Shown here: positions 6,337 to 14,681 of the stretch, piece by piece
How the letters are laid out: the number at the start of each line of letters is the position of its first letter
Numbering within the stretch: the stretch's first letter is position 1
Assembly (NCBI GenBank): GCA_002067795.1
Contig: MVQI01000072.1
Span: 1 to 43,063, forward strand
DNA length: 43,063 nucleotides
Direction: 5' to 3'
Source of the DNA: Methanosaeta sp. PtaB.Bin039
Lineage (GTDB): Archaea; Halobacteriota; Methanosarcinia; Methanotrichales; Methanotrichaceae
The notes under the pieces: model-generated
What the model saw: only the letters and a program-made list of their open reading frames with translations
What the model was told of the DNA's origin: nothing
Database searches by the model: none
Program-made: the position numbers and the translations under genes

Positions 6337-6358
6337 ATGCTTTTATCATATTAATTGC
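6337..6358 (+). promoter_or_regulatory. Promoter-like element of surface-protein copy 1
   Basis: The sequence CTTTTATCATATTAAT recurs upstream of copy 2 as CTTTTATCGTATTAAT, at almost the same distance from the shared GGAGGG. Conservation inside otherwise divergent upstream DNA supports a TATA/BRE element for both genes. Confidence 0.5.
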
Positions 6359-6399
6359 TGTAGTATTGCATCTCGAATGAATTTGCAGGAGGGAAATAC

Positions 6400-7218
6400 A
6401 TCCGAGGCAAGCTAATGATAGCCCTTTTGATATTCAGCCTCATAGGTGCAGCCTGCGCTGCAAACTACATGTATGAGAAGGCAAATATAAATGGCGTAGG
6501 ATATAAGAATGTGGAGATGATCATTTCCACACAGCACGGATACTCCGGTGCAAAGCTAGTTGAGAAGGAATCAGGCTCCGGTAACGTGATCATTGAGAAG
6601 ACAGAACTTGAAGCAGAGCGACAACTCCGCGGAGATTACTTGTGGGGAGGAGCTTATTTCGACGCGCAAGGGAATTACTACAATGATTGGAGATGTCAGT
6701 ACCCATCAGGATACAACAGGATGGATTACATCAACTTCACCAAGGAGGCTGAGTTCGAGTATATGCCAGTCTCATACCAGACCGGCACCTACGACCAGAA
6801 GTGGATCGAGAAGCTCTGCGTCCAGAACTACAGAATTGGTGCTGTCCTGACTGAGATGTACACCCACGCAGAGCACCTCCAGAAGAAGACTGAGGTAAAG
6901 ACGAGGTTGTATGGATTTGCATGGGGACCAACTGATGAGATACTGCCGGAAATTGGAACCAATAATCTAATACCTCTGGATAAAGCATGCTGCACGGGTG
7001 TCCTCGAGGCCAACTTAAACGCCCAGGTTATCGGTGTCGCCCACATAGGATGGATGTCCAGAGACCCAATGCCTTCGGCTCTGGTCAAGGGACGCCACAT
7101 CGAGTACGGCCGGTCAGTTGAGGACCTCACTGGTGTCTTCTCAATCGAGAAGTTCATCCAGCTCTGGGGCAACTCCACCTGCGGTGCGATAAGCGTCGAC
7201 TGGCTGCCCTGCATGTAA
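6400..7218 (+). CDS. Secreted surface/sheath-like protein, copy 1 (apparent ATC start)
   Basis: A mature region starting ANYMYEKANI follows a signal peptide. Between the in-frame TAG at 6361 and ATG 6415 there is no ATG, GTG or TTG. A strong GGAGGG (6388-6393) sits 6 bases before ATC 6400, which would give MRGKLMIALLIFSLIGAACA, a textbook signal peptide of a 272-residue protein. ATG 6415 would cut off the basic N-region and lies 21 bases from the GGAGGG. The protein is nearly identical to copy 2 (13920-14681) except in two internal segments. I associate the family with the Methanothrix sheath or surface layer, but this is recall rather than proof. A hairpin terminator follows. Confidence 0.75.
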   Translation: MRGKLMIALLIFSLIGAACAANYMYEKANINGVGYKNVEMIISTQHGYSGAKLVEKESGSGNVIIEKTELEAERQLRGDYLWGGAYFDAQGNYYNDWRCQYPSGYNRMDYINFTKEAEFEYMPVSYQTGTYDQKWIEKLCVQNYRIGAVLTEMYTHAEHLQKKTEVKTRLYGFAWGPTDEILPEIGTNNLIPLDKACCTGVLEANLNAQVIGVAHIGWMSRDPMPSALVKGRHIEYGRSVEDLTGVFSIEKFIQLWGNSTCGAISVDWLPCM

Positions 7219-13593: not shown

Positions 13594-13919
13594 GATCCTG
13601 CCAAGAAGCTTTTTTCTTATACCTATGTATCTTTTATAGTATATATAGATAAATTTATCGAATGCGCGATCAACCGGAAAAGTCATCGTCTGGTCGATGG
13701 CGATCGTGCTCGATCCTGGTATCACCGATATCTCAAATGAAGGAGTTCTCCAGCATCGCGAAGCTCTGCATGGGCCGACTATCGCCGGCTGAGCCATAAG
13801 CATCGATGTTAGCGAGGTACTCGACTGTCCTTTCTGCCTGTTGCTCAGAAAGTCTTTTATCGTATTAATCAGTGTAGATTGCTCACTTATAGAGAAGACG
13901 TTTTCAGGAGGGATAGTGC
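13594..13919. other. Divergent intergenic region between acetyltransferase and surface-protein copy 2
   Basis: The left part carries the minus-strand TATA-like tract of the acetyltransferase (13636-13650). The right part carries the promoter-like element and GGAGGG of surface-protein copy 2. Nothing else is recognisable. Confidence 0.5.
13852..13871 (+). promoter_or_regulatory. Promoter-like element of surface-protein copy 2
   Basis: CTTTTATCGTATTAAT matches the element at 6337-6358 upstream of copy 1 and is placed about 50 bases before the shared GGAGGG. Confidence 0.5.
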
Positions 13920-14681
13920 ATTCGAGAGAAGATACTGATAGCCTTATTTATATTCAGCCTTGTCGGGGCGGCTTGCGGTGCCAACTATATGTATGAGAAG
14001 GCGAATATAAAGGGTGTAGGATACAAGAATGTGGAGGTAATCATATCCACCCAGCACGGATTCAACGGTGCAAAGCTGGTGGAGAAGGAATCCGGGTCCG
14101 GTAACGTGATTACCCAGAGGATGGAGCTCGAGGCTGAGAGGCAACTCATGTACCCGATGGACGAGAAAGCTCCCTTATGGACGTGTCCATTCCCAACCGG
14201 CGAGCCGGAGATGGATTACATCAACTTCACAAAGGAAGCTGAGTTTGAGTACATGCCAGTCTCCTACCAGACCGGAACCTACGACCAGAAGTGGATCGAG
14301 AAGCTCTGCGTCCAGAACTACAGGATCGGCGCCGTGCTGACCGAGATGTACACCCATGCAGAGCACCTCCAGAAGAAGACCGAGGTCAAGACCAGGCTGT
14401 ACGGATTCATGTTTGGCAATGACAGATTCCTTGAGAGACAGTATGAAGCCTGCTGTACCGGAGTCCTCGAGGCAAACCTAAACGCCCAGGTCATTGGTGT
14501 CGCTCACATCGGATGGATGTCTCGGGACCCCGAGCCTTCGCCACTCGTCAAGGGACGCCACATCGAGTACGGCAGGTCTGTTGAGGATCTCACTGGTGTC
14601 TTCTCGATCGAGAAGTTCATCCAGCTGTGGGGCAACTCAACCTGCGGTGCCATCAGCGTCGACTGGCTGCCCTGTCTGTGA
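13920..14681 (+). CDS. Secreted surface/sheath-like protein, copy 2 (apparent ATT start)
   Basis: A close paralogue of the gene at 6400. An in-frame TAG at 13914 is followed by TGC ATT CGA GAG AAG, and no ATG, GTG or TTG occurs until 13989, which is already inside the mature protein. GGAGGG (13907-13912) lies 7 bases before ATT 13920, giving MREKILIALFIFSLVGAACG and a 253-residue protein. Both copies have 23 codons between this start and the MYEKANI motif. The blocks KESGSGNVI, DYINFTKEAEFEYMPVSYQT and the whole C-terminal third match copy 1; the segments before DYINF and after TRLYGF do not. It probably forms part of the cell envelope; identity with the Methanothrix sheath protein is suspected only. 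Confidence 0.75.
   Translation: MREKILIALFIFSLVGAACGANYMYEKANIKGVGYKNVEVIISTQHGFNGAKLVEKESGSGNVITQRMELEAERQLMYPMDEKAPLWTCPFPTGEPEMDYINFTKEAEFEYMPVSYQTGTYDQKWIEKLCVQNYRIGAVLTEMYTHAEHLQKKTEVKTRLYGFMFGNDRFLERQYEACCTGVLEANLNAQVIGVAHIGWMSRDPEPSPLVKGRHIEYGRSVEDLTGVFSIEKFIQLWGNSTCGAISVDWLPCL

Follow-up and report, generated by a model that had tools for sequence, protein, structure and literature searches.

Probable near-cognate start codons in SH-type sheath protein genes of the Methanotrichaceae

The start site of two paralogous surface-protein genes

The window analysed here, 43,063 nucleotides of contig MVQI01000072.1 (positions 1 to 43,063) of Methanosaeta sp. PtaB.Bin039, contains two paralogous surface-protein genes (copies 1 and 2), and the question raised by copy 2 is which codon starts its translation. 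The first-pass annotation had pointed to an ATT at 13920, 7 bases after GGAGGG, with an in-frame TAG at 13914, and this matches the DNA base for base: AGGAGG occupies positions 13906-13911, GGAGGG positions 13907-13912, and a 7-base gap leads to the ATT (Table 1). It is also correct that no canonical start occurs before 13989 and that the whole signal peptide would be bypassed from there, as ATG 13989 is the first in-frame ATG, GTG or TTG and is located within the NYMYEK motif of the mature protein, past the 21-residue signal peptide. A GTG at 13916 was considered as the start of copy 2 and rejected, being out of frame and missing from the other copies. In copy 1, gene finders would select ATG 6415, within the signal peptide.

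Table 1. Positions of the features of copies 1 and 2 in the window
Feature	Position	Strand	Basis or remark
SH-type sheath gene, copy 2	13920..14681	+	ATT to TGA stop, 253 codons; open frame, homology to other copies, dN/dS ~0.1
Near-cognate start codon ATT, copy 2	13920..13922	+	Shine-Dalgarno-spaced; homologues have ATC/ATT/ATA/ACG/CTG (33) or ATG/TTG in this column
Shine-Dalgarno AGGAGGG, copy 2	13906..13912	+	Kept 5' of the start across the family
In-frame TAG, rules out an upstream start of copy 2	13914..13916	+	Sequence
Signal peptide IREKILIALFIFSLVGAACGA, copy 2	13920..13982	+	Translation; charged n-region retained only with the ATT start
TATA-like box CTTTTATCGTATTAAT, putative promoter	13854..13869	+	Upstream block conserved among own-genome odd-start copies
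Hypervariable loop 1, mature copy 2 protein	14151..14207	+	Alignment and low-confidence loop in structure model
Hypervariable loop 2, mature copy 2 protein	14409..14450	+	Alignment and low-confidence loop in structure model
SH-type sheath gene, copy 1 (ATC start)	6400..7218	+	Homology to copy 2
Near-cognate start codon ATC, copy 1	6400..6402	+	Column shared with ATT 13920
Shine-Dalgarno AGGAGGG, copy 1	6387..6393	+	Sequence
TATA-like box CTTTTATCATATTAAT, copy 1, putative promoter	6340..6355	+	Conserved upstream block

About a dozen copies of the family are present in the Methanosaeta sp. PtaB.Bin039 genome, and alignment reveals that they consist of almost invariant blocks interrupted by two hypervariable loops. 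Ten of them have a readable 5' end, and their start codons comprise five ATC, two ATT, one ACG and two ATG; in copies starting with ATC or ATT, the last base of the codon is variable but never G. Values of dN/dS between copies range from 0.06 to 0.19 at dS ~0.5-2, and since dN/dS is ~0.1 with dS near 1, the copies are both old and protein-coding. The two genes in the window had initially been regarded as independent; they are paralogues of one lineage, though old (dS ~0.93 between them). Copies are also found at or near the ends of contigs C39, C52, C63, C68 and C74 of the same genome. The repeats interrupt the assembly, which makes the copy number approximate, and the true figure may be higher.

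Membership of the archaeal sheath protein family

Homologues were found in all 50 of the Methanotrichaceae genomes searched, with 1 to 21 matches per genome, and the named records of the family come from Methanothrix/Methanosaeta and relatives; viral relatives are encoded at 16 IMG/VR loci. By inspection, the N-terminus has a charged n-region, a hydrophobic stretch and an AxA-like end, and the mature proteins are ~190-320 aa in length. The predicted structure is almost entirely beta (pLDDT 75, pTM 0.75), with the two variable loops poorly predicted. Pfam returned no family above cut-off for the sheath-type protein, and sequence and fold searches of the PDB gave nothing usable, the libraries holding no SH structure for comparison with the model. 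In a 1,879,471-base genome, a close homologue that starts with ATG adjoins another secreted gene at 704 kb; by gene count, the strongly transcribed sheath genes Mthe_0667/0668 would be expected at roughly this position.

The SH proteins are multicopy in Methanotrichales and possess a signal peptide, a length of 150-350 aa, viral homologues and a beta core with variable additions, the core comprising two beta-sheets of six antiparallel strands each (PMC11576556). Because copy number, signal-like N-terminus, size, the all-beta model and viral homologues match this description, copies 1 and 2, and with them their Methanotrichaceae-wide, multicopy family of secreted all-beta proteins, are likely to be SH proteins, which belong to the tube-like sheath enclosing Methanothrix-like archaea. 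In M. thermoacetophila, transcripts are dominated by three SH genes, the remaining SH genes being low (PMC11576556). The difference from that survey concerns initiation: the term 'start codon' is absent from it, and near-cognate starts are seemingly unreported for the family. The accessible parts of the Methanothrix transcriptome papers do not name sheath-type genes of the family.

Start codons across 123 homologues and their recurrence

To survey the start column, we located the mature N-terminus in 123 distinct homologues and then scanned for a Shine-Dalgarno sequence and in-frame codons. Canonical starts were called as ATG in 53, TTG in 26 and GTG in 7 (three of the GTG calls being better read as TTG), whereas 33 of the 123 have no ATG, GTG or TTG at the Shine-Dalgarno-spaced start. 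Inspection of the other four showed one degraded 5' end and three canonical starts that the Shine-Dalgarno scan had overlooked. All 33 odd starts are near-cognate codons 6-10 nt after GGAGG, namely ACG (21), ATC (5), ATT (3), ATA (2) and CTG (2). Absent from this set are AAG and AGG, which are the poorest near-cognate codons. As a control, adjacent out-of-frame triplets in the same 33 homologues fall in the five-codon set in only 2 of 132 cases. The expectation that every member would have ATH in this column is not borne out, as the odd codon found most often is ACG, both CTG and ATA are present too, and the majority of members have ATG or TTG.

The coding context of these codons is consistent with initiation. 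A lysine or arginine occurs within five residues after the odd start in 32 of the 33, any internal canonical start would lose every K/R before the mature protein, and reading upstream from the odd start meets an in-frame stop sooner than any canonical start in 28 of the 33. The weakest member of the set is L120, a doubtful case with ACG at a gap of 10 and no charged residue near. On these sequence grounds we regard ATT 13920 and its counterparts in the family as very probably genuine start codons. Median protein length is 243.5 aa for odd-start genes vs 227.5 aa for ATG and 219 aa for TTG genes, these being raw medians that ignore relatedness. In one homologue (L141, mature N-terminus at 1561), an ATGTAA start-stop pair is placed between the Shine-Dalgarno sequence and the ACG start (GGAGGGATGTAAACG); this minimal pair might act as a decoy or a re-initiation site.

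One ACG gene is common to three relatives, with nearly identical leaders and dS of 0.33-0.36, and the remaining ACG copies diverge at dS ~0.8 or more. Parsimony, applied to a weakly supported tree built from the mature region, requires at least 24 switches of start class, canonical to odd or the reverse, a number that gene conversion may inflate. Because odd starts are present in chromosome-sized contigs of other species, ACG on a 2,559,043-base contig (G010:C2) and CTG on a 3,008,626-base contig (G015:C1), draft-assembly error is excluded. The first-pass annotation had argued against a sequencing error and for a conserved weak or regulated start; that odd starts recur in numerous paralogues, in more than one genus and on contigs of chromosome size makes such an error unlikely and strongly supports a conserved non-standard start. 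Taken at the level of sequence, this suggests that a subset of Methanotrichaceae sheath paralogues repeatedly swapped ATG/TTG for a near-cognate start whilst retaining a strong, well-spaced Shine-Dalgarno sequence. In the genome designated G015, near-identical ATG-start SH genes with common leaders (CGATCCTCATGTAAAGGAGGTGGGAAAGAAATG) form a tandem cluster (G015:C1:974020-980528), and the CTG-start SH gene at 870364 is solitary.

Possible roles for near-cognate starts

In archaea, the 30S subunit is placed on the message by Shine-Dalgarno pairing, and aIF1 destabilises complexes formed on non-AUG codons (PMC6237735). In the mechanism that we propose, Shine-Dalgarno pairing would bring the initiator tRNA into position on the near-cognate codon and, given the codon-anticodon mismatch, just a fraction of complexes would pass start-codon proofreading by aIF1. 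Variant subunits, mostly those with larger loops, would thereby be held low, with the ATG and TTG copies supplying the bulk subunit. The sequence comparisons support well where the start lies, its reading frame, its conservation and recurrence, and selection on the protein; initiation with methionine, low output and use in setting subunit ratios are steps that we infer. Given known initiation biochemistry, such starts can be expected to be weak, and a near-cognate codon preceded at 7-8 nt by a strong Shine-Dalgarno sequence would therefore give low but real initiation. The longer odd-start proteins, the tandem ATG genes and single CTG gene of G015 and the three dominant SH transcripts of M. 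thermoacetophila together suggest that weak starts keep the variants scarce within a largely uniform polymer. We thus favour, as the probable reading overall, genuine near-cognate starts that are rescued by the Shine-Dalgarno sequence and keep variant sheath subunits at low dose; the dosage role taken by itself has in our estimate an even chance of being right.

Alternatively, the starts could be conditional, such that lower stringency (less aIF1, stress) would cause the odd-start subunits to be translated together and the sheath surface to be altered. The anatomy expected is identical to that of the dosage model, a single functional family accounts for nearly all of the odd starts, and the non-canonical start of Streptomyces sigR is under initiation-factor control (PMC5472188); against this, aIF1 is a candidate taken solely from the literature (PMC6237735), and we consider conditional use rather unlikely. 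An extension of this idea, in which the odd-start sheath genes constitute a translational regulon and aIF1/initiator-tRNA stringency switches the composition of the amyloid-like sheath without new transcription, is slightly less likely still. It is more doubtful that the odd-start genes are untranslated and act as a reservoir of variable loops that gene conversion copies into an ATG expression locus. Many copies with near-identical core blocks and two hypervariable loops would fit such silent donors, but these genes retain the Shine-Dalgarno sequence and promoter-like box, their start column is limited to near-cognate codons with no free drift, purifying selection acts on the copies, signal peptide included, and dS near 1 between copies speaks against frequent recent conversion.

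Initiation at a downstream canonical codon (ATG 13989 in copy 2, ATG 6415 in copy 1), giving a protein that is unsecreted or secreted without its n-region, is what ORF calling limited to ATG, GTG and TTG yields; this is very improbable, as these codons have no Shine-Dalgarno sequence at the proper distance, differ between the copies and forfeit the charged n-region, and the stretch from the near-cognate codon to the mature protein is under protein-level selection. Least credible of all are pseudogenes, in conflict with strong purifying selection, assembly errors, which the draft status of the window's assembly and the copies at contig ends might invite but which odd starts in chromosome-sized contigs and many independent assemblies contradict, and mRNA editing restoring AUG, since C-to-U conversion could turn ACG into AUG but ATC, ATT, ATA and CTG are beyond such repair.

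The bacterial genes infC and pcnB have AUU starts that are weak and follow a Shine-Dalgarno sequence. They resemble the sheath genes in using AUU as a deliberate weak start in this position, and differ in being single housekeeping genes, of which infC is autoregulated, whereas no autoregulation is evident for the sheath protein. In Streptomyces, sigR has a GTC start that is repressed by IF3 (PMC5472188); this conserved non-canonical start cuts translation and sets the ratio of two interacting proteins. The feature typical of infC and sigR, a conserved non-canonical start at the proper Shine-Dalgarno distance, is present in the sheath family, although sigR is a single bacterial regulator with GTC and IF3, and the present case is an archaeal multigene surface family with ATH, ACG and CTG, and with aIF1 rather than IF3. 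Chloroplast genes have non-AUG starts that are likewise evolutionarily conserved and proposed as an additional layer of translational regulation (PMC9845219, which also mentions infC); those genes are organellar with ACG editable to AUG, unlike the five codon types of the sheath family, mostly beyond editing.

That a weak non-AUG start can fix how much of a protein is made is already known, and it is the occurrence of such starts in the SH family that appears unreported: the literature searched, mostly without subscription papers, yielded no description of an archaeal gene family with near-cognate starts across its members. In a published reconstruction of how start codons have switched, 61,358 ancestral AUG starts yielded just 2 switches to CUG and 1 to AUU (PMC5622118), in contrast to 33 odd starts amongst 123 sampled members of one archaeal surface family, for which the parsimony result points to many separate changes. 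Should the near-cognate starts be confirmed, these genes would offer a natural archaeal model of near-cognate initiation and of proofreading by aIF1, and would suggest that start-codon strength tunes the subunit ratios of a polymeric coat. Standard gene finders truncate or misplace sheath genes with near-cognate starts, and confirmation would mean that, for many sheath genes of Methanothrix, finders limited to ATG, GTG and TTG get both the gene model and the predicted secretion wrong.

The viral SH homologues (L238-L253, IMG/VR) differ from the host genes in having ATG wherever the start is readable, and never a near-cognate codon. A dedicated initiator tRNA was considered and rejected; the tRNA loci scanned (30 of 44 matches) have ordinary anticodons only, and because the five odd codons mismatch at different positions, one extra tRNA would not suit them all. 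We also rejected a genome-wide loose start rule. In 400 kb stretches from three genomes (1.2 Mb, 995 ORFs), Shine-Dalgarno-spaced near-cognate codons ahead of the first canonical start were no more frequent than background, with the exception of cbiG. This gene (Pfam CbiG_N, CbiG_C) has ATA at the Shine-Dalgarno-spaced start both in Methanosaeta sp. PtaB.Bin039 (L166:18007, contig C82) and at ~225,967 of G010:C2, and is a candidate for a second, separate near-cognate start. It overlaps the last part of the gene before it and has no ATG, GTG or TTG for >40 codons, an arrangement found in two genera.
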